NCBI RefSeq assembly: GCF_028622875.1
Contig: NZ_CP117709.1
Coordinates: 620,001-684,000 of the forward strand
Length of the DNA: 64,000 nucleotides
Direction of reading: 5' to 3'
Source of the DNA: Streptomyces sp. MMBL 11-1
GTDB lineage: Bacteria > Actinomycetota > Actinomycetes > Streptomycetales > Streptomycetaceae
Part shown: positions 1 through 22,994 of the stretch, piece after piece
How the letters are laid out: every line of letters begins with the position of its first letter
Position numbering within the stretch: position 1 is the first letter of the stretch
Notes under the pieces: generated by a model
What the model was told of the DNA's origin: nothing
The model's database searches: none
The model's input: the letters and a program-made list of their open reading frames with translations, nothing else
Program-made: the position numbers and the translations under genes

Positions 1-3000
1 GTCCGGGGACCGCTTCCCCGGCCGCCGGGCCCGTAAGGGGCGCCGCGGAGTTGATCGCCGGAAGCGGGGGGAGCGGGGGTTGGTCCGGGGCAGGGGTGTC
101 GAGCAGGGCCTGGGCGTGCTCGTCGGGGAAGAGCCCGTCCCGGGCGACGTGGTCGCGCAGTTCCCGCTCGGTGAGCGGGTGGACGTTCCAGTACCGGCCC
201 CAGTTGTCCTGGTAGTCCAGCGCCGGATCATGACCGGGAAGGTCATTGAGCGCCAACTGGGCGCCCCGCATCACCTCGTGGAACGAGTGGTGGCCCGCCG
301 ACAGCGAGGTGGCGATCATGCCGGCCCGGATCAGGCCGAGGTCCAGGTCGATCCCCCACTGGTCCCGCATCCGGGCTGCGTGCACCAGCAAGCGGTACGT
401 CGAACCCGCGGTGCCGGTCGCGACCAGTCCGCCCGAATCCTCGGACAGTCCCTGGAAGCCGGAGCCCATCGCGAGGTCGTACACCGAGGTGGCCGGTATC
501 CAGGTGAGGTTCTGGTCGTCGACCGCCAGCAGACGCTCCGCCCGGCTCAACGGGGGGCGCACATCGTCCGGGTGGGTCTGGACCGCCTGGGCCCTCGTGG
601 CCCGGGCGAGGACTGCCTGCTTCTCCTGCGGGGAAAGGCTGTCGTCCAGCCTGATCTCCTCGGCGAGCCGCTCCAGCTCTGCGCGGGCTTCCGCCTGCCG
701 GCGGCTGGGCCGCTCCGCCTCGATCTCCGGGTGCTGGTCCTCGCGTCCGCCGAGCATCGCCGGCACCAGGTCGCTGGAGACGCCCTGGAACAGGAAGGTC
801 ACGAGTTCCCGCAGGTTCCCGGTCCGCAGCACCCGCTGGAGTGCGGGCCTGCCGGTTCCGACGGAACCCGCCAGGCTCGGGTTCTCACTGCCGAACGTGG
901 CCAGGTCGCCGGGGAACTGCTGGCGCGCCCGCTCCCACGCGGCGCGCGCCATCTTCCGGAACTCCTCGGTCACCCTCTCGTTCTCGGCGAGGTGCCCGGC
1001 CAGGCGCCGCTCGAAGGCGACGGACTCCTCGGCGTAGCGGATGCGCGCCCGGACCCACGCGGGCACCTCGGCACCACGGCCGGGGCTCGTCGCCCCGGAC
1101 CGGCGAGGTGTCCGGGACCCGTCCCGGACGGGAGAGGTGACGGACTCGGCGCTCCGGGAGGGCTCGGGCCGGGGCCCGGCCGCCGGGGCGGGGACGGAGG
1201 TGGGGCGGGGCAGCACGGGCGTCTCGGACGGGGGCGGCCCTCCGAGGGGCCCGGGGTGGTCCGGGCGTGGCGTCGGGGTGTTGCGGCGGTCGTCGATGGT
1301 TACCGTCACCACCCGTCCCCGGTCCGGGTCGGTGGCGCCGCGGACCCGCTTCGCGTCCTGGGTGAGCTGGAAGTCGGAGAGCGTGACGTGCGGTCCGGGG
1401 GCGCCTGCCTGGAAGGTCCTGAGCAGCCGGCCGAGCCGCTCGCCGAGCGCGTGGGCGACCGCCTCGGCCCGCTTACGGCCGCTGGCCCGCGAACGGTTGC
1501 CGTGTCCGGTGACGGTGACGGCCGGCAGGGGCAGTCCGTGGGCCCTGTTCCACAGTCCCGCGCGGGCCAGCGACAGCGCCAGCGCGTTCAGGTTCTCGTC
1601 GGCGTTGGACACGGTGTGCTGCTGCTCCGCGAACCGCAGGGTCCGCTGGTGCGGACGGGGCGTGTGCCCGTGCAGGGCCACCGTGGTCAGCGGGTTGGCG
1701 ACGGCGGGCGAACCCTCCGACAGCAGTGCGGCGTTGACCGCGTGCGCCGACTCCCCCGGGCGCTTGCTGTAGGCACGGAAGAACCAGAGGTCCTTGTCGT
1801 CCGTGACCGGCGCCGCACTCCGGACGGCGTCCCGGGCGCGGGCGCGGGCCTGGTCCACCTCGCGCTGTGCCAGCGCGTGCTCGGGGCCGCCCTCGGTGAA
1901 GTACCAGCGGACCTGCTCCGCCTCGTGGACGCCGGCCAGGGCCCGGGCGGCGCGCGCGAAGCCCTCCAGCCGGGTGATGTCCGCCGCCTCCGCGCCACCG
2001 CGCCGCGCCGCCTCGGCGGACCGGTCGGTCTCCTCGGCCAGCCTGCCGAGTTCGTCCGCGTCGTAGCGGTCGAGGTTGTCGTCGACGATGCCGTCGAGCC
2101 GGTCCGCCGGGATCTCGGTGCGGGAGTGGGTCTCGTTCTCCAGGGTGATCTGGTGGGTGCCGTCCTCACTGGCCAGCACCACCTGGGCGAAGTGGTAGGG
2201 GGCGTGCGGACCGACCCGGTCGCCGGGCTTTGCGTGGTTGTGGGTGAACAGCTGGGCGCCGCCGTCGTTCGTCGTGCTGACCGACTGGATCAGATAGCCC
2301 TCGCCGACCTCCGCCCAGGCGAACTGGTTGACGCCGATGTGCGCCGCGGCGGTGTTCAGCGGCCCGCGCAGCGTGTTGTCCGGCGTGTGGCTCAGGGCCC
2401 GGCCGTACGTCTCGCCCGGGGTGGGCGCTCCCACCACGCCACCGGTGAAGCGCGGGTCCGAGCCCGCTCGGCGGGCCGCCCAGCCGGGGGTGACGCCGGT
2501 GGCGAGGCGGGTGCCGTGGGCGGCCTCCGTCAACGCCTGGGCCAGGTGGTGGGTACCGGTGACCTCCCGGCCGTGCAGTGCGTTGACCGGGGCGGTGGCG
2601 ACGGTGCCGTCCGGACCGCGGAAGGCGATGTGGGAGAGCGGCGCGGCCTCCGCTCCGGCGACCATCCGGGCGAAGTCCCGGGTGGAGGCGTGCTCGGAGG
2701 CGCCGGACGCGGTCAGGAACTGCGGCTCCACCCGGAACAGCGGCTCGCCCGTCGAGCCGTCCTCCCGGGTCAGGAGCACGCTCATCGAGGTGTCGGTCAC
2801 CAGCCTCACCCCGGCGCCGGTGGCGGCCAGTCGCGCGGTGGAGCGTTCGATCGCCGCCCGGGTCGCGTACACCTGCCGGCTCCGGCCGGTGGTGTCGTCG
2901 CCGGCCGAGTGCAGGGCGAGCGTCCGGTCCGCGGAGATGTGCAACGGCGGCCGGTCGGCGGCGTGGACGGCGCCCTGGTCCTGGTGCGGCAGGAAGAGGG

Positions 3001-6000
3001 CGGGCGTGTCGGACCCGTCCTCGGCCCGGACCTCACCGACGGCCCGGGGCCGCGGCTCGGTGAACAGCACCCCGGTGCCGCTCTCGTCGACGACCCGGTA
3101 GTCACGGGTGACCAGGGGCCGGGGGCGCAGGGCGTCGATCCGGCGCTCCCACTGGGCCCGGTCGGCGAGCCGGTCGAACTCGGCGTCCCCGTCGCTGGTG
3201 GAGCCGCTGTCGCTCTCGGTGTCACTGCCGTCGTCGCTGTCGCTGCTGAGGTCGCGCGCGCCGGTCAGGCCGCGGTCCCGCGGTGGCGGCGGCGTGGCCC
3301 AGCCCGGCCCGTCGCCCCCCTGGCTCCGGCGCACCACCAGGCGGCGGTCCCCGGAAGTGGGGTGGGTGGCCGCCTCGGCCACACCCAGCGGGTACCAGAC
3401 GGGGCGCGCCGTCGTGCCGGAGACCAGGTTGGCGACCTCTGCGGCGAACGCCGGGGGCAGCACCAGGACGATGTCCGCGCCGCGCGGCCGCCGGGCGTCG
3501 TAGGAAATGATCCGGGCCATCTCCACGGCGTCGCGGACCACGAAGGTCCGCCACGGCGTGACGATCTCGACGCCCTCCCCGTCCGCCTCCTCGGCCACGA
3601 TCACATACGGGCCGCGCCACGGCGCGGGCCGCCGGGTGAAGCCGCCGGAGTGCTCGGCGAGGTAGGAGTCCAGCTCTGGCGGACGCCGGCCCGTCCCGGT
3701 GAAGTCGCGTCCGGTCGGGCTCCGGTCCGCGGTGCGCAGCAGGGTCTCCTCGGCCAGGGCGTCCCGCCGGGTCTCGATCTGGCGGTCGATGAAGTACGCG
3801 GCGAGGTCCTCGGCGCTTTCCAGGTCGTCCGAGGACGCCTCCAGCACCAACGCCCCGAGATCCAGCACGTCCTGGGAGCTCGCCCGGGCCCGGCGGGGAA
3901 GGTGCAGGACCTCGCGGGTGAGGTCGGCCAGCCCGGCCTGCGGCGGGCGGTTGCCCGCCGCCCGCTCGACCAGCGCGTACAGCGCCTCGGAGGTCTCCTG
4001 GAGCCGGGGGCGCGGGGCCCTGCTCCACTGCGGGCCGAACACCGTGCTGAGCCACCGCGGGTCGGCCCAGGCCGGAGGGCCGTCCTCGGTCTCGGAGTCC
4101 GTGTCCCCGTCCTCGGACTCCGTTCCGCCGTCCGGGTCCTCGGAGTCCCTTCCCCCGTCCGGCCCGGGCGGCGCGCCGGAGAACGTGCTCAGTTCGTACG
4201 CCTCTTCCTCGTCCGGCAGCCCGGGGCGGTCGCTGTCGGCGAGGGTCGGGGGCAGCGGGACGGCGGCCGGGTCCGGGTGCCGGGCGGGCGGGGCCGGCAC
4301 GGACATGTCGACGGTGGAGGCGGTCGGGTCGGTGACCGGCCTGGCCGGGGCGTCGGGGCCGGTGGGCTTCTGCCGCGCCGGGATCCCGTGCGTCGGCGCG
4401 GGCGCCGGGGTGCGCGGGAGCAGCGGGACGAAGTCGCCGCCACGGCGGCGGAGCCGGAGGACGGAGGCGTCGGCGGACGGGCCGGGGTAGGTGTGGGCGG
4501 TGCCGTTCTCCTCGATCAGCGTGACCGTGGTGCCGGTCGCGGCTGCGGCCCACTCGGCCACCGCGCGGTCGGCTTCCGGGCCCCACGGGGCATTGGCCAA
4601 GTGGCGGCGCAGGTGGCCTTCGTGGGCGTCCTTGCCCGGCGCGGGTGCGCCCGCGAGGGGGCGGGGGGCCGGGGGCGTGAAGAGCGCGTCGCGTGCGGCC
4701 GGGTCGCCGGGCAGGCCGTTCAGTCGCAGCAGCTGGGCGGGCGACGCCCCCGCACGGTGGCGGAGCCGCGCGGCCTCCTGACGGTCCAGGCCGGGCTGCG
4801 CGGCGGCCTGGCGCATGGCCGTGGAGAGCGCGGCGAAGAAGCCGTTGCCCCGGCCCGCGGGGGTGCCTTGGGTGTAGGTCGCGCCGTCGGGGGCGGTGAG
4901 TACGCCGTCCCGGTCCAGGCGGTAGCGGGGGCCGGTGAGGTCGGCCGGCGGCAGCCAGGGGGCGGTGGCGTGGCTGCGGTGGGTGGGTGGCTTCGCTGGC
5001 CCCGTGGACGTGGCCGTCGTGGACGTGGTCATGGACGTGCCAGTCGTGGACGTGGCCGTCGTGGCCGTCGGCAACGGTGTCGCGACCGGGGGCGCGGTAC
5101 CGGCCGGGAGCGTGGCGTGGAAGAAGCCCCCCTCGGCGAGGAGCACCGGATCGGTGGCCGCGTCGACCGCGGCCGGATCCGCTCCGTGCGGGACGAAGAG
5201 CTGCTGCCGCCCCTCCCCCGTCACCACCGTCAGTGGGATGCCCAGGACCCGGGCGGCGAGAGCGGGCAGCAGGTCGGCGCCGCCGTGGTCGCCCGCGCGG
5301 CGCTCGGGTGGAGCCGGCTCCCCCGCGTCCCGGTCCGTCGTGTCCGCTGCCGGCGGCTCGGCCGCGAACGGGCGGGACAGGGCCGCGACGGCCAGCGCGA
5401 CCCGCTGTTCTGGCGTCGGCCAGAACGTCTGCGGGAGACGACCGAGCGCGTCGAACTCCGCCTGCTGTACGGCGGACAACTCCACCCCCGCGACATCGAG
5501 TTCGTCCTGTGTGAAGGTGTCCGCGACATCCAGCGCCAGAGCGTCGATCAGATCCTCGTTGCCGTGGTCGGCCAACGCCCAGGCAAGGCGGTCGCGCGCT
5601 GCGGCGACGGCCTCGGCCGTGACCGACGGATCCCCGGCGCCGGCCGCGAACCGGTCGGCGAGACCGGGGCCGAGGAGGTGGGAAAGGCGTCCGCGGTCCT
5701 GGGCCACGGCGAGCAACGCGTGGAAGAACGAGGCGCCGTCGTGCGGCACGGTGTGCACCTCGCGCACCGTGGTGCCGTCCGGCGAGGTGAGGGTGCGAGG
5801 AGCCGAGTCGGTGGCATCGGTGATCGTGTACGGCTCCGGTGCCTCGGAGCGCCAGCCGGGGACGGTGTACTCCTGCGGGGGGTCCTTTACGGCGGCCGAG
5901 GCCGAACCCTGGTGGTGGGCGGTGAGTCGGGTCGCGGCGAGGTGCAGTCGGTGGTGGTCGGCGGCGGCGGCGTCGGTGTGCCGCGCCCACCGGCGTACCT

Positions 6001-9000: not shown

Positions 9001-12000
9001 CGCCCAGCAGACCGGCCGAGGCGAGCCGGGCCCAGCCGCGCGGGCGGCGGTGGCCCTCGAAAGTGGCGGCCAGCTCCACCTGGTAGCTGTAGAGGTCGGC
9101 ACCGTTCTGGAAGGTCAGCTGGTCGTGGGCGACCGCGACGGTGTTCCGGGTGGCCTTCGCGTCGCTCTTCGCGTAGCGGCCGCCGAGGGAGACGTTGCCC
9201 ATCCGGCGCGGCAGCCCGGCGTCGGGCGCCTTGTCGTGGTCGCGCGGCGAGATGCCCATCTCGACCCCGGCGGAGAGCGTGGTGGACGCCTGCTGCCCCT
9301 GGCCGGAGACCTCGGTACCGATCACCGCGTTGCGCAGGGACCGCTCGCTCATGGTGGTCTCGAACCGCCGGTCGGTGAGGCGCGCCCGCAGGATCAGGGT
9401 GTGGTGGCCGCGTCGCACCTTGCCGTCCTCGGTGAGGAGGACGGGCACCCCGGTGGTCGTCAGGTCGTCCAGACTCTGCGCCAGGCTGGGCCTGTTGAGT
9501 GCCTCGCGCACCTGGCGGTCGTTGAACTGCGCGGTCCGGACGCGCCCGTCGCCGTACCAGAGCCGGGCCAGCCGGGGGTGCCGCAGCATCAGCGGCGGGA
9601 CGAAGAGGGACGGGTAGGAGCGGTAGAGCGTGTCCACCACCGTGTCGGCGAAGGCCCGCAGGGGATCCTGGGGAGCCGGGGCAGGGGCGGGGGCAGGAGC
9701 AGGAGCCGGGAGCGGCTGCCCGTTCCGGTGCTGCTGACCCTGCTGGTCCTGCTGGTCCTGCTGGCTCTGCTGGGCGGGGGGCCGCACGTTCCGGTCGGGC
9801 GGGGCGGGAGGCCGTTGGTCCGGCCGGAAGCCCTCGGCACGGACCTGGCCGCCCAGGTGCACCGGATCCTCACGGGTGAGGTACCACGGCAGGGGCGGCT
9901 CGGCGTCCGGGTTCGGGCCCGTCGCGCCGGGCGTTCGGCTGTCCCAGCCCGCGAGCCGGCGCGCGTCCTGGGTGGATATCCAGTCCAGGCTGACCACCCG
10001 GACCGGGCGGGCCGCGGACGCCGGTTCACCGGCCTTCCGCACCATCAGGGTGCGCTCCACCCGGTAGAGCGCGAGCGGGTGGTTGCGGACGCGCCCGGTG
10101 ACCTTGCGGGCCGCGTCGTTACCGAGGTAGTGGCCCCGGCCGGTGCCGAGATCCGCCCGGACCAGCGGGCCGCCCTGGAGCCGGACGTCGGTCTCCGGGC
10201 CGATGAGGGTGAAGTTGGGACCGGAGGTGACCTGGGCTCCGAGACGGGTGTCACGGACGTGGGCGCGCTGGTTCTGGTAGGTGGTCTGGGCGATGTCGCG
10301 CACCTCGGCCTTGACCGACTCCGTGACCAGGGTGGCCCGGTGCGGGATCGATCGCTCGACGACCAGGTGCCCGAGGGGGCGCTGACCGCTGCCACGGGTC
10401 AGCCCGGGCCCGCTGACCGGTCCGGCGAGCCGCCCGAAGAGTCCGTGCAGTCGCCCCGGCCTGACGTAGGAGACCAGCGTGCGGTGCGCCGAACTTCCGG
10501 GTCGCGCCCCGGAGATGGCGAGCGCCACCTCCTCGGGCGGGTCCGTCAGGTGCAGTCCGGCGGTGTCGCTGACCCGTGGCTCGACGCCGTCCGGGAAAGT
10601 GAGCGTCTCCGGTGCCCGCTTCGGCCCCTTGAACGGCACGGTGAGGTCGTCCGGCAGCCGCCAGCTCAGCCCGTCCCGGACGGCGAACGTCGCGGTGTGC
10701 ACGGGGGTGCGCTGCCAGCGAGGGGCAGGCGCGGGCGGGGTGGCATCCGGCCCGGTGGTCCTCGGCGCCTCGGTGACGCGCTCCACCCGCACCCGGTAGT
10801 GGACGTCGTCCAGGTGCAGATGCGAGCCGTCCACCGCCCGGTACTCGGACTGGTTGTACGCCTGTGTGCCCAGGGTGTAGTCGGTCCGGCGGCTCCAGCC
10901 CAGCGAAACGCCGATCTTGAGCATCCAGTTGAGCGGCGGCCCCATGCCCACCGCGGCGGCCACCCGACGCCCGACGCCGACACTGCGCCCGCCCCCCGTA
11001 CCGGCCTGGCCACGCCGCATGGTGTCCACCCGGACCGTGGAGCCGTTGACGTCGGAGAAGCGTTCCCAGCGGTGGTACGGGGCGGCCTCGACGGTCATCT
11101 CGTGGCCGACACCGGACTTCTCCCGGCCCACGAAGCGGGCGCCGCGCGGGGCGGTGAAGGCGGCGGGCTGATCGGTCAGCAGACGCAGCAGCTCCGCCTC
11201 GTCGAACTGGGCGCGCACTTTACCGGGCAGCTTGCCGAGGATCTCCTGGGCCACCTGCTCGGCCGAGCGGAGGGTGAGGACACCGACGCCGCTCAGGAGC
11301 CCGGTCCGGGGGGCGGCGGCCGTGCGGGGGCCCGGCCCTCCGTCGCCCGGACCGGCGTCCGGGCTGATCAGGACGGTGGGCAGCCGGGCGCCGTCCTCGA
11401 AGGTCACCGTACGCGGGGCGGGACCCGGCGGCCGGGCGTCCTCGCCCGTCAACAGCCGTGCGGGCCGGTGCCGTTCGAGCTGCGTCTCCAGCGGCACGGG
11501 ATCGCCCCGGTCCGGGGCCGGGGTGTCGGGGGCGTCCAGCCCGGTGATCCCGCCCATGCTCCGCAGCCACTGTCCGAAGACATCGGAGCCGGCCGGGTCC
11601 TGGGTGGCCGGAGCGGGGGTGAGGACGGGCGCCGGGGCGGGGGTGAAGGGCGCCGAGTCGGGAACCAGGGCGTCGAAGTGGTCGGTGCCGTTGTAGGACA
11701 GGTGGAGGGCCCCGCCCCGGCCGCCCGGGTTGAGGGGGGTGACGAAGGTACTTCCCGGTGCCCGCGGGTCCGGCTGGACGAGCCGCAGGTCGAGGTCAAG
11801 GGTGTGCGCCAGCGCCTGCGGGAGTACGTCGGCGAAGGGCGACGCCCACAGCGCGGGGAGATCCGCCGCCGCGAGGATCAGGCCGTCGGTGCCGAGCCGT
11901 CGCGCGTCGGCGGGGGTCGGTGCCACCTCGGCGAGGTGGGGGTAGCCGCTGTTCCGGAGCATCCGCCGCCACTGTCGGCCGTCTCCGTCGGTGACGACCG

Positions 12001-15000
12001 CCTGCGCCATCCGGTCCCAGCGCTGGGCGATCCGGCCCTGCGCGTCCGGGTCCCGTACCCCGGCGAGGGCGGTCATCCGCAGGTCGTCGACGACGGCGAG
12101 CACGGGGTCGGGGTTGGCCTCGGCCGCCGTGTCGAGGAGTTCGGAGCCGGTGAGCCGGTCGCGCAGCAGCTCGCGCAGCCGGGTGGTGTCCCGAGCGGCC
12201 CACGCCGGAGGTACGGGCCGGCTGCGCGCGCTGTCGAGCAGCGCCCGGAAGAGGCAGTTGCCGCCGCCCGGGGTGTGCAGTCGGCGGAAGGCCAGCCCGT
12301 CCGCGCGCACGGAGTCCGCGGAGCCGGGTGCCGCAGGGGCCTTGCTGAACAGCGTCAGCTCCTCGGCGAGGCTCTCCGGGCTGCTCGGCGCGGGTGCCAG
12401 ATCGGGTCGGCGCCGGGCGAGTTCGACGGTGTCCTCGGGGCTCAGGGCCAGGTCGGAGAGGGGCAGCGGGGCGGTGGAGAGCGACCAGGTGATCCGCGCG
12501 GCGGGCGCGTAGGTGAGCCCGGTCACGTCTTGCGGTGAGACCAGGGTGGTCGGTGGGAGCTCGGGGGGTGGCGGGGGCAGCAGGGCGTCGAGCGACGTGC
12601 CGGTCTCCGCGGTGGCGCTCAACTCGGCTGCCGCGCGCAGGAATTCCCGGTAGTCGTCGGGGGTGGGGTCGGTGGGGTCTGCCGAGGTTCCCCCGGTGGT
12701 GGCCGTGGCGCCCGCAGGGCCCGCCTCCGGTCCGCCGGTCGTCGCACCCGTCTCGCGGCGCCGGTCGACGACCATCCGGCGCAGCAGGTCCGGGGTCATC
12801 CGGCCGTCGCCGTATCGGGCCGCCGTCTCCTGGTGGAGCCAGCGCAGGCCGTCCACGTACGCGAGTCCGGCGAGCGACTCCCGGTGTTCGGGCTGTTGTT
12901 CGGAATCCGGACCGAAGACTTCGCGCAGCGTGCGGATCTGCTGGAGGGTGCGGGCGCGGGCGAACGCGTCGGCCGGGTCCGGGCCCGCGTGCAGACCGGC
13001 GTCGCGTGCCAGCGAGTCCAGTGCGGTGCCGCCGGGCTCCGGGGTGAAGAGCCTCCACCGACCCGGCCCGTCCGGTCCGTCGGTGAGTACCGCGCGGACG
13101 TTGCCGTCCCGGTCCTTGGCCGTGCCCGCCTCGGTCGTCGGGGCGTACACCGTGCGCCCGGTCCGGTTCGCCACGTGCTGGGCCACGGGCAGCCCCGCGA
13201 TCTGCGGCTGCCGCCCGGTCTCGCAGGAGAACAGCACCAGCGGCCGGTCCTGGTCGCCGTCCTCGGCCCAGTACTTGAGCACCTCGCCGAGCTGCACGCC
13301 GCTGACCTTCACGCTGGGACGCGCGGCGTCATCGGTGCCGAGTGTGACGGTACGGGGGGTGCCGTGCGCCGCGAGGTAGTCCGCGTCCCGCGCCGTTCCG
13401 GAGCCGGGTAGCGCGGTCGGCGGTCCGGTGAACACCGTACGGGGGACCGGCGCAGTCTCGGTGGCCGCCGGGTCCGGGGCCTCGGAGGAAGCGGTGCGCA
13501 CGCCGCGAAAGGTGTCCTGGCCGAGCAGCGCCCGGCGCCCCGCGCTCTGCCCCGTACCGTCCTCGGCGGGGCTCTGCGAGATGGTCAACGTCTGCACCGC
13601 GCGGCCGGGCCGGGGCTGGTGAGGCCCTCCAGGCACCCAGCGCCGCAGCTGCGCGAAGGGCACCGCGTGGCCGCTCAGGGTGGTGACGACCCGCTGCTCC
13701 TCGGGAGGCGTGGGGCTGTCTCCCTCGGTGGTGGCCACGTCGCCGCGCCCCGACTCCGGTGCGGTGGCGGTCTGTTCCGGGGGCGGGTGCGGTCGGCCGG
13801 CGGGCAGGGCGCCGTCGCGGACCAGCGACTCGACCATCTGCGGTACCGAACGGCTGCCCTGGAACAGGCCGTGCATGTCTTCGGGTACGACGGGCCGGAA
13901 GCCCTGCTCCAGCAGGAGCTTGGGCAGCAGGAGCTGGACGTTGGTGCGGAGGTTGCCGTCCTGGAAGGGGTGGACCACGTGCAGTGCCCGGACGGTGCGG
14001 GCGATGGAGGCGAGCTTGGCTCCGTCGTCGGCCCCGGGTCGGCCGACGCGGGCGTAGTGCTGCTGGAACAACGTGTCGACGAGGTCGGCGGCGGCCCCCT
14101 TCTTGTAGTTGGTCGCCAGCGACGGGACGCCGTGCAGGAAGCGGGTGAGGATCGTGACCGGCCGGGGCGAGGGCAGCGGGTCGGCCCAGTTGTGCGTGGT
14201 CATGTCGTAGACCAGGGCCTGGCCCCCGACGCGCTCGTCGAAGATGTCGGGAGCGAGAGCGTCACCACGCAGCGGGAACTGGGTGGTCCCGTCGCCGGAC
14301 CAGCCGATCGCACGGCCGAGATGGCCGGTCGCCAGAGCGTGCATGGCCTGGTACGCGGCCGAGTCCATGGGAGCCGCGACGGTGTCGGGATCGCCAAGGA
14401 ACCGGGTGTACGCCGCGACCATGCCCGCCTGGAAACCCGGGGACCGGTCGTGGTCGTAGTAGGACCCGGGGTCGTCGGGGAAGGCTGCCAGGGCGGCTTC
14501 GTGATTCTTGGGGTCGATGTAGAACTGCCACCACTCGTTCTCCGGCAGGACGTCCCGCAGAGTCTCGCGCTGCTCCGGCGGTCCCGGCCGCCCCTGGTCC
14601 GGGAAGGGCCCGCCGGTCCCGGTACTCGCGTCGGTGGTGGTCGCGTCGGTGGTGGTCGCGGGGGTGGTGGTCGCGGGGGTGGCTCCGTCGTCGCGCCCCG
14701 ACTCCAGGTGCAGATCGGTGGCCGTCTCGGTCCAGGGGGTGGACAGGGTGACCGGCTTGGAGGCGGCTGGGACGTCGGTGGCGGCGCCGGGGCTGTCCGT
14801 GGCCGTGGCCGTGGCCGTGGCGAGCGTCGGCTTGACGTCCCGGGCGGGTGCGGTGTCGGTCGTGGTGACGATCGGCGGCTTGATGTCCGTGCCGTCTTCG
14901 ATGCCGGTCACGGGGGTCGGTTCGCCCGAAAGTACCTTCACGGGGCGCAGGTCCGGGTCGCCAGGCGCCGACGCGCCGCCGACCGGCTTGTCGGCGGGCT

Positions 15001-17479
15001 TCTCCCCGGGCGGCGGAGGGGCCGACGCGGCGGGCGCGGAGGCCGCCGACGTCACGGGCGTGGGAACGGTCGACGTCACGGGCGTGGCAGACGCCGGCCC
15101 GGCGGACGTGACCGGCGACGGGGTATTCGAGGCGCCGGGCGACGGAGTCGCCGACGTGATGGGCGGCGGGCCGAGGGCGGCCGAAAGCGGCAGCAGCACA
15201 TCGGCGCCGGAGAACGCGGTGCCCGAGATGCCTTCCGGCGTCACCGTGACGTACGGACCGGTGAGCGTACGGGCCCGGACCGGGTCACCGGGACTGTGAC
15301 GGGTCAGCTCGACGGCGCTGCGTACCGGCTCTCCGGCCTCCCCCGTCACGTCCTGCGCTACCGGCGGGCCGAGCACCACAGCCCGGTCGGCGTCGGCGCC
15401 GTCCAGCAACTCAGCGGCCTCCGGGGACCCCGCGGCCGGTGGCGGCGCCTCCGAGACGACCACCGTCAGCGGGGGCGGCCCGGCGTCGGCCGTAGGGCCC
15501 GCGGCGACAACGGGCGGGGCGTCGGCGGACGCCCCGCGCCCGTCCGAACCGCCGCCGGTCCGTCCCGGATCGCGCCCATCCGAACCGGCGCCCGCCCCAC
15601 CCACGTCGCGCCCGATGGAACCGGTGCCCGTCTCCCCAGGACCACGCGCCCCCGAGCCGCCTCCCGACGGCGCCGGGACTCCCCCGGCCATGGAGCCGCC
15701 CGCGCCGATCGGCGGGGCCACCGTCACCGGCGTACCGAAGCCCCCCAGGGCCCTGCGGACCTCCTCGGCGTCCACCCGGGCCGCGGGGCTGTTCCCCGCG
15801 GGTACCACCCGGACCTCGGGCACCTGCGACAGACCGGCGTTCAGGCTGTCGCGTACGCCTGTCTCGGTGCCGCTGGGCGGCTGGCCGCCCCGTAGGGCGG
15901 CAAGGTCGCGCAGCGCCTGTTCGCGCGTCTCGGCGGGACCCTGGTGGAACTGTTGCCACAGCTTGTTCTCGGCGGCGGTCACGGGCATCGGGCCCGGGGA
16001 ATAAGGGGGCGGGTCCGCCGGGACGTACGGCGGGGGGTCCTGCGCCAGGTAGGGCGGAGGCGACTGGCTGCCCGTGAAGCCACCCTGGCCGGTGACCTGT
16101 TGGGCGACCGGCGGAGGCCCGCCGAGGGCGGGTCCGTCGCCGCCGGTGGTGTCCGTGCGCGAGGGGCCGCCGGTGCGGTCGGGACCGTCAGCGGCGCGGG
16201 AGGAGTGCTCCGAGCCGCGCGTACCGGAGTCACCGCCGCCGGAGACGGTGGGCAGCGGCTGGTCGCGCAACTTGTCGATCGCGTGCCGCAGTTCGGCGCC
16301 GCTGTTGAGGGCGGTACTGGTGAGCGACGCCTCGACCTGGCTGCTGACGCCCGCGCCGACAAAGGTGGACCAGCTGGTGGACCAGTCGCCGTCGAAGGCC
16401 CCCTTGATCAGGATCTCCGCGAGCGCTTCGCCGGACCCGGCGGCGAGGAAGTCGGCCGTTCCCTTGAGCCCGTAGTGCCCGGCCAGCGCGGCCGGCCGGT
16501 CGGAGTTGTAGCGAAGGATCTGACTGTTCCGCCACAGATCGGGGTTGTTCCGGAAGGCGAGCGGGCCGTCCCGGAAGGTGACCGGGGGCCTGGGCGGGGG
16601 GACGGGCCCGCTCCCGTTCGGGTCGGGTCCGGGGCGGTCGTCCGGAGGACTGGCGCGGTCGGGGTTCGGCTTGGAGTCGGGGTCGGGGGTCGGACCATTG
16701 CTCTTCGGGTCGACGTTCGGGGTGTCCCGCAGGTTGGGGTTGTCCTTGAAGTCGGGTCCGTTCTTCAGGAAGTTGCCGTCGAAGCTTCTGACGATGTCCT
16801 TCGCGAACGTGTCGAAGACGCTCGTGAAGAATCCCGCCGCCGCACCGAAGGCGGCGGCCTTGCCGATGTCGCTCCAGTCGATGCCGTCGGGGCGGCGGCC
16901 GTCCGGGGCGAAGTTCATCATCGCCAGCCGCACGGCGAACGTGGTGAACGCCTCGGCGAACGCCTCGGTCAAGGAGGGCGTCAGGTGCAGCCGCTGGAGG
17001 AGGTGGCTGAGCGTGGTGAGGATGAAGAAGCGGCTGCGGAGCTTGGCCATCATGATCTGGCTGGCCGAGGCTCCGCCGGTGAAGAAGGACATCGCCAGGT
17101 AGATGGCGATCTCGATGAGCAGCCGGATGATCTCGGCGATGACCTGCCACTTGGACTCCATGATGTCCATGGAGGTCTTGCGCCGGCCCTCGGCGATCCT
17201 GTCGAGCTGCTCGGCGAAGTCGCGCAGGTAGTTCTTGCCGCCGTCGTCGACGAGCATCCCCATCGCCCGGCTGTACGAGGTGGCGAGGTCGTCCGGCATG
17301 GACTCGCCGATGTCGTGGATCGACTTGTCGATCAGCGAGGACAGTCGTTCCAGTTTGCGCCCGAGGCCGGAGTAGGGCCGACGACTGTCGAAGGCGAGGT
17401 CCTCGTCGGCGTCCATGAGCTTCTCCCCGGTGAGGATGAAGATCATGGCGTTGACCTCGGGCGATACCTGGATGCTCAC
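1..17479 (-). CDS. Giant T7SS-linked multidomain protein, 3' end outside window
   Basis: The frame starts at a GTG (17477-17479) and has no stop down to base 1, giving at least 5,826 residues. Residues 1 to about 240 are helical with hydrophobic stretches (IAIYLAMSFFTGGAS; AAAFGAAAGFFTSVFD) and resemble the WXG100-like N-terminal domain of CpnT-type T7SS toxins. A Pro/Ser/Thr-rich linker (about 250-950) follows. Then come a Fic-like motif (H1170), a clan-CD-like HG...SC pair (H1372, C1419), an OTU-like core (C1742, H1934), long beta-rich stretches (about 2000-3800), two decayed OTU-like modules (3917-4119, 4213-4349), acidic DSE-rich linkers, and an OmpA-like segment near 5326. The gene is last in the esx gene string, 81 bp after a WXG100-like gene. 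Streptomyces giants of this kind are often annotated as lonely-Cys-domain proteins. Role as exported effector is inferred. The family resemblance is by motif only. Confidence 0.85.
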   Translation of the reverse strand, partial: MSIQVSPEVNAMIFILTGEKLMDADEDLAFDSRRPYSGLGRKLERLSSLIDKSIHDIGESMPDDLATSYSRAMGMLVDDGGKNYLRDFAEQLDRIAEGRRKTSMDIMESKWQVIAEIIRLLIEIAIYLAMSFFTGGASASQIMMAKLRSRFFILTTLSHLLQRLHLTPSLTEAFAEAFTTFAVRLAMMNFAPDGRRPDGIDWSDIGKAAAFGAAAGFFTSVFDTFAKDIVRSFDGNFLKNGPDFKDNPNLRDTPNVDPKSNGPTPDPDSKPNPDRASPPDDRPGPDPNGSGPVPPPRPPVTFRDGPLAFRNNPDLWRNSQILRYNSDRPAALAGHYGLKGTADFLAAGSGEALAEILIKGAFDGDWSTSWSTFVGAGVSSQVEASLTSTALNSGAELRHAIDKLRDQPLPTVSGGGDSGTRGSEHSSRAADGPDRTGGPSRTDTTGGDGPALGGPPPVAQQVTGQGGFTGSQSPPPYLAQDPPPYVPADPPPYSPGPMPVTAAENKLWQQFHQGPAETREQALRDLAALRGGQPPSGTETGVRDSLNAGLSQVPEVRVVPAGNSPAARVDAEEVRRALGGFGTPVTVAPPIGAGGSMAGGVPAPSGGGSGARGPGETGTGSIGRDVGGAGAGSDGRDPGRTGGGSDGRGASADAPPVVAAGPTADAGPPPLTVVVSEAPPPAAGSPEAAELLDGADADRAVVLGPPVAQDVTGEAGEPVRSAVELTRHSPGDPVRARTLTGPYVTVTPEGISGTAFSGADVLLPLSAALGPPPITSATPSPGASNTPSPVTSAGPASATPVTSTVPTPVTSAASAPAASAPPPPGEKPADKPVGGASAPGDPDLRPVKVLSGEPTPVTGIEDGTDIKPPIVTTTDTAPARDVKPTLATATATATDSPGAATDVPAASKPVTLSTPWTETATDLHLESGRDDGATPATTTPATTTDATTTDASTGTGGPFPDQGRPGPPEQRETLRDVLPENEWWQFYIDPKNHEAALAAFPDDPGSYYDHDRSPGFQAGMVAAYTRFLGDPDTVAAPMDSAAYQAMHALATGHLGRAIGWSGDGTTQFPLRGDALAPDIFDERVGGQALVYDMTTHNWADPLPSPRPVTILTRFLHGVPSLATNYKKGAAADLVDTLFQQHYARVGRPGADDGAKLASIARTVRALHVVHPFQDGNLRTNVQLLLPKLLLEQGFRPVVPEDMHGLFQGSRSVPQMVESLVRDGALPAGRPHPPPEQTATAPESGRGDVATTEGDSPTPPEEQRVVTTLSGHAVPFAQLRRWVPGGPHQPRPGRAVQTLTISQSPAEDGTGQSAGRRALLGQDTFRGVRTASSEAPDPAATETAPVPRTVFTGPPTALPGSGTARDADYLAAHGTPRTVTLGTDDAARPSVKVSGVQLGEVLKYWAEDGDQDRPLVLFSCETGRQPQIAGLPVAQHVANRTGRTVYAPTTEAGTAKDRDGNVRAVLTDGPDGPGRWRLFTPEPGGTALDSLARDAGLHAGPDPADAFARARTLQQIRTLREVFGPDSEQQPEHRESLAGLAYVDGLRWLHQETAARYGDGRMTPDLLRRMVVDRRRETGATTGGPEAGPAGATATTGGTSADPTDPTPDDYREFLRAAAELSATAETGTSLDALLPPPPPELPPTTLVSPQDVTGLTYAPAARITWSLSTAPLPLSDLALSPEDTVELARRRPDLAPAPSSPESLAEELTLFSKAPAAPGSADSVRADGLAFRRLHTPGGGNCLFRALLDSARSRPVPPAWAARDTTRLRELLRDRLTGSELLDTAAEANPDPVLAVVDDLRMTALAGVRDPDAQGRIAQRWDRMAQAVVTDGDGRQWRRMLRNSGYPHLAEVAPTPADARRLGTDGLILAAADLPALWASPFADVLPQALAHTLDLDLRLVQPDPRAPGSTFVTPLNPGGRGGALHLSYNGTDHFDALVPDSAPFTPAPAPVLTPAPATQDPAGSDVFGQWLRSMGGITGLDAPDTPAPDRGDPVPLETQLERHRPARLLTGEDARPPGPAPRTVTFEDGARLPTVLISPDAGPGDGGPGPRTAAAPRTGLLSGVGVLTLRSAEQVAQEILGKLPGKVRAQFDEAELLRLLTDQPAAFTAPRGARFVGREKSGVGHEMTVEAAPYHRWERFSDVNGSTVRVDTMRRGQAGTGGGRSVGVGRRVAAAVGMGPPLNWMLKIGVSLGWSRRTDYTLGTQAYNQSEYRAVDGSHLHLDDVHYRVRVERVTEAPRTTGPDATPPAPAPRWQRTPVHTATFAVRDGLSWRLPDDLTVPFKGPKRAPETLTFPDGVEPRVSDTAGLHLTDPPEEVALAISGARPGSSAHRTLVSYVRPGRLHGLFGRLAGPVSGPGLTRGSGQRPLGHLVVERSIPHRATLVTESVKAEVRDIAQTTYQNQRAHVRDTRLGAQVTSGPNFTLIGPETDVRLQGGPLVRADLGTGRGHYLGNDAARKVTGRVRNHPLALYRVERTLMVRKAGEPASAARPVRVVSLDWISTQDARRLAGWDSRTPGATGPNPDAEPPLPWYLTREDPVHLGGQVRAEGFRPDQRPPAPPDRNVRPPAQQSQQDQQDQQGQQHRNGQPLPAPAPAPAPAPAPQDPLRAFADTVVDTLYRSYPSLFVPPLMLRHPRLARLWYGDGRVRTAQFNDRQVREALNRPSLAQSLDDLTTTGVPVLLTEDGKVRRGHHTLILRARLTDRRFETTMSERSLRNAVIGTEVSGQGQQASTTLSAGVEMGISPRDHDKAPDAGLPRRMGNVSLGGRYAKSDAKATRNTVAVAHDQLTFQNGADLYSYQVELAATFEGHRRPRGWARLASAGLLGAGVFVSKVEERPLFSRGMETVGRVELAVPAAHGSARYAPTDPPATGPTTGAATATSAAPAPTPAPRPLSATEADQLLDGTRPVARGETSDRSLVRRLLSAPHVVLSAEGGRQRQQLVQDTADRASGTSWHVSAPGAPIRTALRRAMANLSIAGQLGQYLGPFGSRVTGLNGAGPFSTHYLKAAIRGELGNVRVVSDPKPGSLEATLGNEHRVTGSSSAVSRTTLGLQGAAMPLQQAPGEQAVLGSYATALQYAWGKGRSASETLTRGRNTTLTYAGRMYLVVADAAETVAVRDRWTAAMGAVGTRAGAGISAAAGRISERLGRGLAPRRAAAALQHIRDAVMFHLPLQDAIETGLAPDGLGTATPGNLGGGYRLPPFLRRRRFPSHPSGRLDASGVAQELMGRLERIGVPSHDREQVLQRLSPDFLRSHLHELTTDGMTLPVRHRAWTRPHHLPVGGSPGQLRFTLTPVTTTVERLRTGYELEDYRTTSRDDAKGTSQDRGADVTLSASQRAAGSGVLVANPALQGTAAKQRSSTRTETTGSTAMPNIATTQTHAEIITSYTLTVTMTDASGEPLSPTATASVGSLNEILPTSLLTPDGDGADGALSEQDIAEPEGAVRLLTAHQARPEAVANWRRNTDGDTGAPNPDILRFDDRTGSGILAVDVLGASRVRDALTLATARADGFPGDSDLGRQYTGTELAERVRMARHTPLTGLGTAPAQAQQEATTQVGLTAGFREALGPNGSPLPTQASAHLFGQSHTADSRLYARMHRRGARLLAVENKPRMEAMRRRKTSDALEAGIVDNVEGAVSSSPMAGNSNAGVTNPGATVPIGGANDSTTSKGAMDTTLGTHLKVVTDRSMLFAVPVSWLSVSEVDHRFTDSRPMRALGHARRGPRAAEAETTVLVWLREDLARDHGLLDDTTFPDEAGAAWDDQARAAADLAAAEKNYYDARARAREAWLGLSADEQTALGDGDPDRPTVLPRSVDRSPAATAWQAAREEVRRWARHTDAAAADHHRLHLAATRLTAHHQGSASAAVKDPPQEYTVPGWRSEAPEPYTITDATDSAPRTLTSPDGTTVREVHTVPHDGASFFHALLAVAQDRGRLSHLLGPGLADRFAAGAGDPSVTAEAVAAARDRLAWALADHGNEDLIDALALDVADTFTQDELDVAGVELSAVQQAEFDALGRLPQTFWPTPEQRVALAVAALSRPFAAEPPAADTTDRDAGEPAPPERRAGDHGGADLLPALAARVLGIPLTVVTGEGRQQLFVPHGADPAAVDAATDPVLLAEGGFFHATLPAGTAPPVATPLPTATTATSTTGTSMTTSTTATSTGPAKPPTHRSHATAPWLPPADLTGPRYRLDRDGVLTAPDGATYTQGTPAGRGNGFFAALSTAMRQAAAQPGLDRQEAARLRHRAGASPAQLLRLNGLPGDPAARDALFTPPAPRPLAGAPAPGKDAHEGHLRRHLANAPWGPEADRAVAEWAAAATGTTVTLIEENGTAHTYPGPSADASVLRLRRRGGDFVPLLPRTPAPAPTHGIPARQKPTGPDAPARPVTDPTASTVDMSVPAPPARHPDPAAVPLPPTLADSDRPGLPDEEEAYELSTFSGAPPGPDGGRDSEDPDGGTESEDGDTDSETEDGPPAWADPRWLSTVFGPQWSRAPRPRLQETSEALYALVERAAGNRPPQAGLADLTREVLHLPRRARASSQDVLDLGALVLEASSDDLESAEDLAAYFIDRQIETRRDALAEETLLRTADRSPTGRDFTGTGRRPPELDSYLAEHSGGFTRRPAPWRGPYVIVAEEADGEGVEIVTPWRTFVVRDAVEMARIISYDARRPRGADIVLVLPPAFAAEVANLVSGTTARPVWYPLGVAEAATHPTSGDRRLVVRRSQGGDGPGWATPPPPRDRGLTGARDLSSDSDDGSDTESDSGSTSDGDAEFDRLADRAQWERRIDALRPRPLVTRDYRVVDESGTGVLFTEPRPRAVGEVRAEDGSDTPALFLPHQDQGAVHAADRPPLHISADRTLALHSAGDDTTGRSRQVYATRAAIERSTARLAATGAGVRLVTDTSMSVLLTREDGSTGEPLFRVEPQFLTASGASEHASTRDFARMVAGAEAAPLSHIAFRGPDGTVATAPVNALHGREVTGTHHLAQALTEAAHGTRLATGVTPGWAARRAGSDPRFTGGVVGAPTPGETYGRALSHTPDNTLRGPLNTAAAHIGVNQFAWAEVGEGYLIQSVSTTNDGGAQLFTHNHAKPGDRVGPHAPYHFAQVVLASEDGTHQITLENETHSRTEIPADRLDGIVDDNLDRYDADELGRLAEETDRSAEAARRGGAEAADITRLEGFARAARALAGVHEAEQVRWYFTEGGPEHALAQREVDQARARARDAVRSAAPVTDDKDLWFFRAYSKRPGESAHAVNAALLSEGSPAVANPLTTVALHGHTPRPHQRTLRFAEQQHTVSNADENLNALALSLARAGLWNRAHGLPLPAVTVTGHGNRSRASGRKRAEAVAHALGERLGRLLRTFQAGAPGPHVTLSDFQLTQDAKRVRGATDPDRGRVVTVTIDDRRNTPTPRPDHPGPLGGPPPSETPVLPRPTSVPAPAAGPRPEPSRSAESVTSPVRDGSRTPRRSGATSPGRGAEVPAWVRARIRYAEESVAFERRLAGHLAENERVTEEFRKMARAAWERARQQFPGDLATFGSENPSLAGSVGTGRPALQRVLRTGNLRELVTFLFQGVSSDLVPAMLGGREDQHPEIEAERPSRRQAEARAELERLAEEIRLDDSLSPQEKQAVLARATRAQAVQTHPDDVRPPLSRAERLLAVDDQNLTWIPATSVYDLAMGSGFQGLSEDSGGLVATGTAGSTYRLLVHAARMRDQWGIDLDLGLIRAGMIATSLSAGHHSFHEVMRGAQLALNDLPGHDPALDYQDNWGRYWNVHPLTERELRDHVARDGLFPDEHAQALLDTPAPDQPPLPPLPAINSAAPLTGPAAGEAVPG
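1420..1519 (-). other. OmpA-like segment in the giant protein
   Basis: VTVTGHGNRSRASGRKRAEA, followed by VAHALGERL (around residue 5326), looks like the peptidoglycan-binding OmpA C-terminal pattern (a GHTD-type strand followed by a helix with xRAxxVxxxL). Cell-wall binding is only a guess. Confidence 0.3.
4415..4859 (-). other. Second decayed OTU-like module, Cys to Gly, His to Asp
   Basis: GRGNGFFAALSTAM aligns with the same nucleophile motif, with Gly4213 at the Cys position; GGDFVPLLP (Asp4349) aligns with the His strand. Both catalytic residues are gone. It lies about 90 residues after the other decayed copy, suggesting tandem duplication. Confidence 0.35.
5105..5761 (-). other. Decayed OTU-like module, Cys to Ser, His to Phe
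   Basis: HDGASFFHALL aligns with DGNCLFRALL, with Ser3917 in place of the nucleophile. EGGFFHATLP 202 residues later aligns with the catalytic strand, with Phe4119 where His should be. The fold is probably kept and the activity lost. Confidence 0.45.
11663..12280 (-). other. OTU-like cysteine protease core, intact residues
   Basis: GGGNCLFRALLDSAR (Cys1742) matches the OTU nucleophile motif DGNCLFRA, and YNGTDHFDALVP (His1934), 192 residues later, matches the catalytic-His strand. Spacing and both motifs fit the OTU deubiquitinase/cysteine protease superfamily. In bacteria such domains act as toxins, host-modifying proteases or processing modules. Confidence 0.6.
13202..13372 (-). other. Clan-CD-like cysteine peptidase dyad in the giant protein
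   Basis: AAHGTPRTVTLG (H1372) is followed 47 residues later by PLVLFSCETGR (C1419). A His-Gly motif and a Cys at the end of a hydrophobic strand are the pattern of caspase/C80-type (clan CD) peptidases, some of which self-cleave large toxins. It may be the lonely-Cys domain used to name such Streptomyces giants. This is a motif match only. Confidence 0.45.
13946..13972 (-). other. Fic-like motif in the giant protein
   Basis: Residues 1170-1178 read HPFQDGNLR, followed by TNVQLLLPKLLLEQGF. The Fic (AMP/nucleotidyl transferase) consensus is HPFx(D/E)GNGRxxR; the catalytic His, Phe, Asp, Gly, Asn and first Arg are kept, while the Gly before that Arg is Leu and the last Arg is Asn. A helical region precedes it. 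Activity is uncertain. Confidence 0.55.
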
Positions 17480-17560: not shown

Positions 17561-17929
17561 TCAGCGGCGTCCATGCCCGCCCGGGTCGTCGAATCCATCG
17601 GTGTCGAGGCGGCTGTTGCCGTGCTCGATCTCGTCGATGTTGCGGTCACGGGTGTCCTTCATCATCCGGACGTTGCTGACCGTGGCGTCGGTGATGCCCA
17701 CCAGCGCGTCACGGATGGACATCATGGTGTCCTTGGTGGTCTGCCGCTCCTTCTGCTCCTGCGGTCGGGCCTTCTCCGAGAACTCACTGTTGGTGCCGGG
17801 CCACGAGACCGTGGGGGCCAGCTCGTCGAGGAACTCCTCGGTCATGCTCCTGGTGAGCGTGCCGATCTCCTCCAACTGCCGTGCCAGGGCCTCGATGCGG
17901 TGCGGGTCGACGTAGTACCGCTGTCCCAT
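17561..17929 (-). CDS. WXG100-like protein preceding the giant gene
   Basis: A 122-residue helical protein. The N-terminal half (VDPHRIEALARQLEEIGTLT) and C-terminal half (MMSIRDALVGITDATVSNV) are predicted helices joined by a turn with a Trp-Pro-Gly (SWPGTNSEF), the position of the WXG motif in Esx proteins. The start ATG follows AGGAGG by nine bases, and that site overlaps the end of the upstream YbaB-like gene, four bases away, so the two are probably translated together. It directly precedes the giant gene by 81 bp and may be its secretion partner, as Esx-like proteins often are for LXG/CpnT toxins. No C-terminal YxxxD/E signal is seen. Confidence 0.75.
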   Translation of the reverse strand: MGQRYYVDPHRIEALARQLEEIGTLTRSMTEEFLDELAPTVSWPGTNSEFSEKARPQEQKERQTTKDTMMSIRDALVGITDATVSNVRMMKDTRDRNIDEIEHGNSRLDTDGFDDPGGHGRR

Positions 17930-17933
17930 CGCG

Positions 17934-18392
17934 TCAGTCCTCCTCTCCCTCGTCGCCGAGCGCGTCCCGCCAGGCGGGGGTGGCCGGGCCGCCCCGTGCC
18001 AGGTCCTCGTCGTCCTCGCGCAGCACCTCGGGCCCGAAGATGCGCTCCCAGTCCAGCTCGAAGCCCTTCAGCTCCGGCACGTTGCTGCTGGGCTCGGCGA
18101 AGGGGGCCATCGCCCGCATCACATGCCGGTTCATCTTCAGGCGTGCCGCGCTCGCCGCCTCCAGCACGCTGGCGGCCAGCTCCTGCGGGGACATGTCGCG
18201 GTACTTGTTGTCCAGGAACTCGATCCCGGTCAGCTCGCCCTGCGGGCCCGAGGTGGCCCGTACCGCACGGTCGGAGGAGAGCACGGCGAACGACGCCGTC
18301 CGCAGCTCGCGCTCGGTGCGCGCGACCGCCTCCTGGGCGGCGTGCAGTTCGGCCATGGCCTTCTCCAGGCGCTTCTCCAGCGGCTCCGTCAC
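17934..18392 (-). CDS. YbaB/EbfC-family protein (EspL-like)
   Basis: 152 residues: a charged N-terminal helix (about 5-40), then the YbaB-type beta segment and helix (RAVRATSGPQGELTGIEFLD, NKYRDMSPQELAASVLEAAS), and an acidic tail ending in EGEED. YbaB/EbfC proteins are small nucleoid-associated DNA-binding dimers; versions in actinobacterial ESX loci (EspL) act as accessory factors. The GTG start has AGGAGGGGAG upstream. The gene sits between the repeat-rich WXG-like protein and the small WXG100-like gene with almost no spacing to the latter, so it is in the same transcript. The family call is firm; a chaperone or regulatory role in secretion is inferred. Confidence 0.75.
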   Translation of the reverse strand: MTEPLEKRLEKAMAELHAAQEAVARTERELRTASFAVLSSDRAVRATSGPQGELTGIEFLDNKYRDMSPQELAASVLEAASAARLKMNRHVMRAMAPFAEPSSNVPELKGFELDWERIFGPEVLREDDEDLARGGPATPAWRDALGDEGEED

Positions 18393-22517: not shown

Positions 22518-22994
22518 CTACTTCTCTTCCGTGCCCGTGGACCCGCTGGTGAGCGTGTCGACCTCTTCGAAGGTCTGGAGCAGCGTCTGGGCGTCGATCG
22601 CGTCCAGGTTCTTGTTCTTGGTCTTCTCGGCCTCTTCGATGGTGTCGGTGAGAGCCTCCTTGAGCTCTCTGAAGAGGTCCATCTGGTCACCGAGCAGCTT
22701 GTCCAGGGCGGTCGCCGCGGTGGTGACGCTCTCGATCAGCGTGGGTCCCGAGACCAGCTTGTCGGTGTTCATCAGCCCCAGACGCAGGATCTGCCGGCCC
22801 TGTTCGAGGTTGTCCGGAGTCGTGTAGCCATCGATGAGCTGACCGAGGGGCCGGATGTGGGCCTCGCCCTCCTCGGCGCTGCCGTCCTCCCGGTGCTGCT
22901 TGGCCTTGGTGTAGACCGGGTGCACCTCGTTGTCCCGGAAGTTCTCCATCTGCTTGAGGTCAAAGTGCTTGACGTCGGCCTTCTCGCCGGCCAT
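22518..22994 (-). CDS. T7SS-associated helical (WXG-like) protein
   Basis: 158 residues from an ATG with a perfect AGGAGG eight bases upstream; a longer frame upstream (to 23030) lacks such a site. The protein is all-helical and acidic: FDLKQMENFRDNEVHPVYTK at the front, a central helix around ESVTTAATALDKLLGDQMDL and a coiled tail (ALTDTIEEAEKTKNKNLDA). It contains YTTPD, a YxxxD-type motif, but not at the C-terminus. It lies between EsxA and the large WXG-like gene, so it is likely another small T7SS substrate or partner of that 1,319-residue protein. I know no closer family name for it. Confidence 0.65.
   Translation of the reverse strand: MAGEKADVKHFDLKQMENFRDNEVHPVYTKAKQHREDGSAEEGEAHIRPLGQLIDGYTTPDNLEQGRQILRLGLMNTDKLVSGPTLIESVTTAATALDKLLGDQMDLFRELKEALTDTIEEAEKTKNKNLDAIDAQTLLQTFEEVDTLTSGSTGTEEK

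Follow-up and report, generated by a model that had tools for sequence, protein, structure and literature searches.

The stretch of DNA analyzed here (the window; 64,000 nucleotides, positions 620,001 to 684,000 of contig NZ_CP117709.1 of Streptomyces sp. MMBL 11-1, G000:C1:620001-684000 in our sample, from a host genome of 8.5 Mb) carries an ESX locus, that is, a type VII secretion system (T7SS), with a giant gene at its left edge. Linked to this gene are genes for EccB, EccC, EccD, an EccA-type ATPase, a mycosin-like protease and WXG100 proteins (Table 1). The original prediction described the giant as an unbroken minus-strand frame of at least 17.5 kb that begins just behind a WXG100-like gene, has no stop by base 1 and encodes more than 5,800 residues and more than 600 kDa. 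The frame was confirmed. It opens with GTG 81 bp after the WXG100-type gene and runs over 2-17479 without a stop, leaving 5,826 codons open inside the window. To the left of the window, the in-frame continuation is uninterrupted for about 12 kb and ends with a stop at C1:608014-608016; the total protein has 9,821 amino acids (aa) and a mass of 1,036.8 kDa (1.04 MDa), well above the predicted minimum.

The frame was compared with other giants carrying the same N-terminal head, which was found in 48 of 199 genomes of a genus sample. From these 48, 28 genomes were taken (large contigs and long frames first) together with G057 and G066, and 24 genomes with 25 giants (217,349 aa; masked or broken frames excluded) were used. 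GC content by codon position across the giant gene was 0.757/0.577/0.923, the third-position value (GC3) stayed at 0.88-0.96 in every one of 20 chunks of 500 codons, and there were no TTA codons. The ratio of nonsynonymous to synonymous substitutions (dN/dS; Nei-Gojobori, against four relatives) was 0.14-0.54 in modules with an evident counterpart and 0.6-1.1 where the giant aligns to relatives at only 31-41% identity, stretches that are saturated or not orthologous. These comparisons indicate that the gene is under purifying selection where it is comparable. The frames of the 24 other giants span 4,288-17,015 aa, with a stop inside the stretch for all but G061, whose frame is cut by the end of its stretch. 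It is extremely improbable that the giant frame is decaying or artefactual, whether through assembly error or as a chance frame in GC-rich DNA. Long spurious frames do occur on the other strand (one of 2,780 aa, typical of GC-rich DNA), and 4 of 16 related loci have the head in another frame than the remainder of the giant, but the continuous GC3 signal, the purifying selection and the frames of the 24 other giants argue against such an origin, and on the same evidence a chance open frame was rejected. In the four loci with displaced frames (G005, G072, G082 and G063), decay and sequencing error are indistinguishable.

The placement of the giant inside an ESX locus was borne out by the EccB, EccC, EccD and WXG100 genes and by conserved synteny over 16 loci, our own included. 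The AAWKG and YbaB genes stand in order before the head in 15 of the 16, a WXG100-type gene lies directly before it in 14 (it was not detected in G079), EccB is present in 13, and EccC and EccD in 10, counts to be read with several stretches ending short of the Ecc genes and G057 being masked upstream. Moreover, the head was found on 15 Streptomyces plasmid records, and on the three plasmids inspected the order of EccC, EccD, EccB, AAWKG, YbaB and the giant is the same. The predicted CpnT-like, T7SS-directed N-terminus corresponds to a WXG100_2 domain, which scored 33 bits when the head was scanned alone (cut-off 27) and 26 bits when it was scanned within the first 5,000 aa; this Pfam family matched 21 of 21 heads. 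The head tile (aa 1-200) is present in all 25 giants, which were selected for bearing it. A PDB profile search with the head returned nothing credible.

Fic-like, clan-CD-like and OTU-like motifs had also been proposed, and they fared differently. A Fic-like motif is present at aa 1170; it is without the last Arg of what we take to be the canonical Fic motif, and the region falls below the Pfam cut-off and scores 19 bits with NCBIfam AnkX, far under that cut-off. Its tile (aa 1001-1200) matches only G100 (75%) and G069 (51%) among the 24 other giants. The clan-CD-like motif was confirmed as a His/Cys domain of clan-CD-like layout, with His1372 and Cys1419. In the OTU-like domain (Cys1742), both motifs align with OTUD3 (4bou), at an E value of only 0.019, and the Cys and the C-terminal His motif are invariant across 11 aligned relatives, including our own. 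The 11 PDB matches of the OTU-like profile comprise two named OTU proteins, seven viral polymerase or replicase chains (174-203 aa), which we take to be viral OTU domains, and two Pumilio proteins, and Pfam OTU matched 1 of the 11 members (E 0.3). These alignments suggest that the domain is likely an OTU.

The body is present at least in part in 19 of the 25 giants, and its repeats B/C and B/D were detected by profile comparison; no credible PDB match was obtained for aa 2595-3480, and no known fold was found. A role of the body as pore or translocator is a guess; in G752, pieces resembling the body are scattered over several sites, an arrangement that counts against a single pore in each chain. 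The two OTU-like stretches at aa 3860-4370 that lack the Cys gave no credible Pfam match, and the domain at aa 4720-5190, perhaps of the MCF1-SHE type of Zhang et al. and called SHE-like below, gave no credible PDB match by profile search. The repeated domain at aa 5473-5800 had no significant PDB or Pfam match; its best PDB match was a Shiga toxin A chain (E 0.28, not significant), and no assignment was made.

The giant contains 5 Cys in 9,821 aa, all of them at predicted nucleophiles, four in His/Cys domains and one in the OTU-like domain. Across the 25 giants, 125 Cys were observed against 2,556 expected from position-specific base composition. In a polyketide synthase (PKS) frame of 7,099 aa from the same genome, 52 residues (0.73%) are Cys against 97 predicted by composition, indicating that base composition overstates Cys about twofold; in another two frames from synthase regions the share is 0.71% and 0.63%. 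At the PKS rate the 25 giants would carry about 1,590 Cys, so that Cys is about 13-fold rarer in them than in the PKS. Trp, whose codon also starts with TG, exceeds its expected number in every one of the 25. A further six giants, of which four belong to other genera and two were open-ended as read, raised the totals to 135 Cys in 278,197 aa (n = 31), and 5 of these 31 giants are Cys-free, three of them from other genera. By site, 53 of the 125 Cys occupy the clan-CD Cys column, 22 an OTU-type pattern (a class set by a loose pattern, not a profile), 5 the SHE-like domain and 45 lie elsewhere; 15 of the 25 giants are without any Cys elsewhere. The TEE-C Cys of five relatives was rejected as a catalytic residue, since it lies in the SHE-like domain, where other copies have a different residue in this column. 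In our own locus, the AAWKG, YbaB, small ESX and lone7 proteins counted have no Cys, and the content is 0.69% in EccC and 1.45% in the EccA-type ATPase.

Four His/Cys domains are present in the giant, one before the body and three in tail units of the lonely_Cys type, and the His-Cys spacing is 47 in all four. The spacing rule for the His/Cys dyad of clan CD is about 45-50 residues. The C-terminal 4,821 aa scored 2,102 bits over 7 stretches with lonely_Cys (NF012197, cut-off 200). A profile built from 41 domains selected for an HG..C pair gave 77 hits at E < 1e-3, among which 52 have both residues, 24 have neither (4 of them gapped on one side), one has the Cys with the His unaligned and none has the His alone. 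Because 41 of the 52 pair-bearing hits were seeds chosen for the pair, the weight rests on the 36 non-seed hits: 11 with both residues, 24 with neither, one with Cys only and none with His alone. His and Cys are thus kept or lost together. They are also the only invariant columns in 51 aligned domains (17-83% identity to the first), an alignment that leaves out one of the 52, without the pair, and whose members were mostly selected for it; Pfam DUF4347 matches 13 of the 51 at E up to 0.01. A pairless copy lies 160-264 aa upstream of 33 of the 52 strong hits, and 25 of those 33 have another downstream, while 14 domains before the OTU/body region and five of G069 have no pairless upstream copy. 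All three tail units of our giant are flanked by pairless copies on both sides.

Extension to the left, where an immunity gene had been thought possible, brought up two lone7para genes, named by NCBI as type VII secretion system-associated, downstream of the giant and no recognizable classical immunity gene. These two and a third one, which lies at the locus's far end, scored 202, 165 and 208 bits (NF033532, cut-off 85). Among 13 giants that have tail His/Cys domains, 12 have a lone7para gene at most 1 kb downstream, as does 1 of 11 that lack such domains (Fisher p 8.9e-5, ignoring kinship); G061 was excluded because its end is outside the stretch. The exceptions are G519, which has tail domains without lone7para, and G075, which has lone7para without tail domains. 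A weak lone7para stretch (E 0.013) was seen about 2.5 kb downstream of the giant of G529.

Toward the C-terminus, the repeated domain at aa 5473-5800 is followed by a tail with three lonely_Cys units and a Scabin-like ADP-ribosyltransferase (ART), and a second copy of the repeated domain stands at aa 9476-9788. The ART scored 70.6 bits (PF22596, cut-off 27) over profile positions 1-130 of 130, and its PDB matches include 5zj4 (E 4.7e-16), Scabin chains, a mosquitocidal toxin and pierisin-1; guanine is described as the base modified by Scabin- and pierisin-type enzymes. The Scabin chains deposited in the PDB measure about 195-200 aa, whereas the ART of the giant comes close to the end of 9,821 aa, with the last repeated domain behind it. 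This ART occurs in four giants (our own, G029, G052 and G529), and its tiles are absent from G557, though G557 is equally close in the body. EndoU tails were found in G023 (46.6 bits, above cut-off) and G528a (22.8 bits, below), and EndoU is annotated on S. atratus plasmids. When 20 other tails were scanned (Pfam, E up to 0.01), 9 matched: three Scabin-like, two EndoU and four others below cut-off (DUF7662, PARP, DUF745 and DUF3626). The Fic-like tile is common to G100 but not to giants closer in head and body. The head in all giants, the body in most and the patchy Fic-like and ART tiles form, as judged from sequence, the mosaic typical of exchangeable toxin modules, of which many are still unnamed.

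The head profile was found in 35 of 394 genomes of a class sample (11 of 137 genera), and no head homologue was found in phages. The lonely_Cys model was found in 22 of 101 genomes of the genus sample, 12 above cut-off, and in 5 of 396 genomes of a phylum sample, our own included: four of the same genus and one marginal elsewhere (E 5.5e-4). In the phylum sample two candidates per genome were scored, which makes it a weak test of absence. The largest open frame seen, 19,630 codons, lies at G340:C17:1913 onward, and the 19,362 aa read contain 2 Cys. In the host genome itself, a second head-bearing frame (4,973 aa, 2 Cys, G000:C1:7356263 onward) lies about 8 kb from another EccC locus. Giants without Cys in other genera are those of G752:C16 (12,025 aa read, open-ended), G930 (8,643 aa) and G813 (7,416 aa), and G528:C2 has two tandem giants of 8,655 aa (2 Cys) and 7,984 aa (0 Cys).

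We consider it probable, at roughly 60%, that the giant is a toxin of megadalton size with many modules, which its own ESX system delivers and which is cut after export. The WXG100_2 head, with the WXG100-type product of the preceding gene as its probable partner, would target the chain to EccC/EccD. The conserved body would carry the chain and, more speculatively, might serve as a delivery device, and the tail would hold exchangeable effector modules, here the Scabin-type ART, with the Fic-like and OTU-like modules preceding the body. After export, the four clan-CD-like Cys protease domains, three of them flanked by pairless copies, would cut the chain into effectors. All Cys other than the nucleophiles would have been lost, as is to be expected if so long a chain has to get through a secretion channel and then fold on the outside without being tangled by disulphides. 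To judge from their co-occurrence with the tail domains, the lone7para proteins probably restrain the tail proteases or chaperone the tail in the producer. Export by the giant's own ESX, self-cutting, inhibition by lone7para proteins and toxicity are thus what we infer from these patterns.

Several observations weigh against this account. The host genome has four EccC loci, so another EccC could export the giant. The restriction of Cys to nucleophiles is incomplete: among the 45 Cys that lie elsewhere, 18 are in three G049-type tails and 15 in G510, and of the 2, 2 and 8 Cys in the three plasmid giants just some occupy nucleophile-type sites. Furthermore, YbaB, lone7_assoc_B and one lone7para protein, which are not obviously secreted, are Cys-free as well. 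The domain assignments have their own limits: the His/Cys profile had no credible PDB match, the sole structure model (first clan-CD domain, six close sequences) reached a mean predicted local distance difference test score (pLDDT) of 44, the OTU-like profile had OTUD3 and EschOTU as best hits at an E value of 0.019, and the Fic-like region remained at 15.6 bits against the 24 required. A toxin-type Pfam match was found in none of 15 of the 20 other tails, 11 of which had no match whatever, and no classical immunity gene was recognized next to the giant.

Part of this evidence would also suit clan-CD-like and OTU-like domains that are effectors acting on target-cell proteins, in a chain that is not self-processed or is cut by mycosin or outside proteases. 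The first clan-CD domain and the OTU sit together ahead of the body, away from the C-terminal toxin, the locus encodes a mycosin-like protease, and the passages of Zhang et al. 2012 (PMC3482391) considered here name both roles for the caspase-like and OTU domains of such proteins. Such a division of labor is possible, and we hold it to be rather unlikely, given that the tail His/Cys domains are repeated, lie mid-chain between pairless copies and track with a producer partner gene, features that better suit self-acting proteases. Less plausible still is a part in Streptomyces development, in which the giant would be no toxin but a surface or matrix protein that the ESX anchors or deposits. Surface proteins are commonly very large and repeat-rich. 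The ESX systems of S. coelicolor and S. scabies are reported to be linked to sporulation and development and to have their role there rather than in virulence (PMC8401907), which tells against a toxin and favors a developmental protein. However, exchangeable C-terminal ADP-ribosyltransferase or EndoU modules, the patchy distribution (head in 48/199, lonely_Cys in 22/101) and plasmid carriage fit conflict systems.

If the toxin account is combined with the Cys pattern, a broader proposal can be made, one that we offer tentatively and consider doubtful as a whole. Actinobacterial ESX would pass chains that reach about 19,000 residues in one piece, at the cost of a near-total Cys ban, and many chains would keep Cys only as the nucleophile of a built-in protease. 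These proteases, boxed by dead copies, would dissect the chain outside the cell, and lone7para proteins would hold them shut in the producer. In that case, passage through a T7SS could be read from the Cys content of a protein.

In MARTX toxins, too, a single secreted chain of great length combines several effectors with a clan-CD protease inside it. The giant would work alike but is not a member of that group: it has several protease-like domains instead of one and lies in a type VII locus, and no RTX repeats were matched by Pfam at E up to 1 in all 9,821 aa. The lonely_Cys (NF012197) and lone7para_assoc (NF033532) models match our own proteins and give names without a mechanism; the His partner and the pairless-active-pairless order go beyond the lonely_Cys model and come from this analysis. 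No literature on 'lonely Cys' or 'AAWKG' proteins was found among open-licence PMC papers. The protein class itself is already known. As far as the passages considered here go, Zhang et al. 2012 (PMC3482391) describe actinobacterial proteins of more than 10,000 aa with caspase-like, OTU and MCF1-SHE domains, Streptomyces caspase-like arrays in which some copies are without catalytic residues, ART domains of the pierisin kind and giant proteins with ART domains; they mention RTX toxin autoprocessing, and propose T7SS delivery of WXG-led caspase-like and OTU toxins with multiple autoproteolytic events. Our giant shares with theirs the WXG-type leader, the linked T7SS genes and the variable C-terminal toxin domain, and both EccC/EccD export and cutting into effectors, raised in the original prediction, are in substance already proposed there for this class. 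Relative to those passages, the present analysis adds the exact length and stop, the head/body/tail scheme from 25 giants and plasmid carriage and, as the more interesting additions, the Cys purge with co-retention of His and Cys and the co-occurrence with lone7para.

For the question of how ESX machines handle large substrates, the giant family offers a direct test: in a genus that can be cultured, a predicted 1-MDa substrate is encoded next to ESX genes of its own and has four predicted protease active-site Cys. The near-total loss of Cys outside the predicted active sites provides a handle on the export and cutting of such a giant, and the Cys pattern shows, with no structure needed, which of the 9,821 residues are likely to be catalytic. 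In addition, the lone7para link offers a concrete candidate partner for a family that so far has a name at NCBI.

Table 1. Features of the giant gene and its ESX locus (window positions, except where C1 coordinates are given).
Feature	Position	Strand	Evidence
Giant gene, part within window (aa 1-5826 of 9,821)	2..17479	-	Open frame, codon GC, flank sequence
Repeated domain, about aa 5473-5800	80..1063	-	Second copy at aa 9476-9788, 50% identity to aa 5473-5788
Conserved domain, fold unassigned, aa 4720-5190	1910..3322	-	13-sequence alignment
Two OTU-like stretches, Cys position Ser and Gly, aa 3860-4370	4370..5902	-	By eye
Body, divergent internal repeats, aa 2000-3800	6080..11482	-	Tile and profile comparison
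OTU-like domain, aa 1690-1965, Cys1742	11585..12412	-	Motifs, profile comparison
First clan-CD-like (lonely-Cys type) domain, aa 1346-1458, His1372/Cys1419	13106..13444	-	Domain profile
Fic-like region, aa 1001-1260, motif at aa 1170	13700..14479	-	Pfam Fic 15.6 bits, cut-off 24
Pro/Ala/Thr-rich linker, fast-evolving, aa 241-990	14510..16759	-	dN/dS 0.36-0.42, identity 63-67%
Head, WXG100_2 (PF25547) export-type domain, aa 1-240	16760..17479	-	Pfam 33 bits alone, cut-off 27
WXG100-type protein (WPG turn), directly before giant	17561..17929	-	Conserved position; no Pfam match
YbaB/EbfC family protein	17934..18392	-	Pfam 36 bits
AAWKG family protein, 1,319 aa, no Cys	18505..22464	-	NCBIfam NF038047, 195 bits
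lone7_assoc_B, type VII secretion system-associated protein	22518..22994	-	NF033533, 146 bits
WXG100 protein	23104..23412	-	Pfam 43.6 bits
Small WXG100/EspB-PE-like protein (weak)	23504..23836	-	EspB_PE E 0.036, below cut-off
EccB	24285..25829	-	Pfam 342 bits
EccD	25875..27281	-	Pfam 253 bits
EccC (EccCa+EccCb)	27366..31715	+	TIGR03924 913 bits, TIGR03925 828 bits
Mycosin-like subtilase	31762..33009	-	TIGR03921 157 bits, below equivalog cut-off; Pfam Peptidase_S8
EccA/SpoVK-type AAA ATPase, beta-helix N-terminus	33003..36314	-	Profile matches
Ricin-B lectin domain protein	36453..37679	-	Domain match
lone7para_assoc protein, third copy, far end of locus	37676..38377	-	NF033532
Two lone7para genes behind giant	C1:607165-607956 and C1:606539-607153		NF033532

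Among the neighboring genes, the ESX genes adjoining EccC lie on the strand opposite to it, and the same orientation was seen in the other loci where EccC was reached. No EccE turned up among the genes scanned, in which no search aimed at EccE was made. The protein encoded at window positions 33003-36314 is a double AAA ATPase with a parallel beta-helix N-terminus, and the plasmid annotation names it as a beta-helix protein only. The Ricin-B lectin gene and the third lone7para gene (36453-38377) overlap by 4 bp, and lectin genes lie near the giants on two of the three plasmids inspected.

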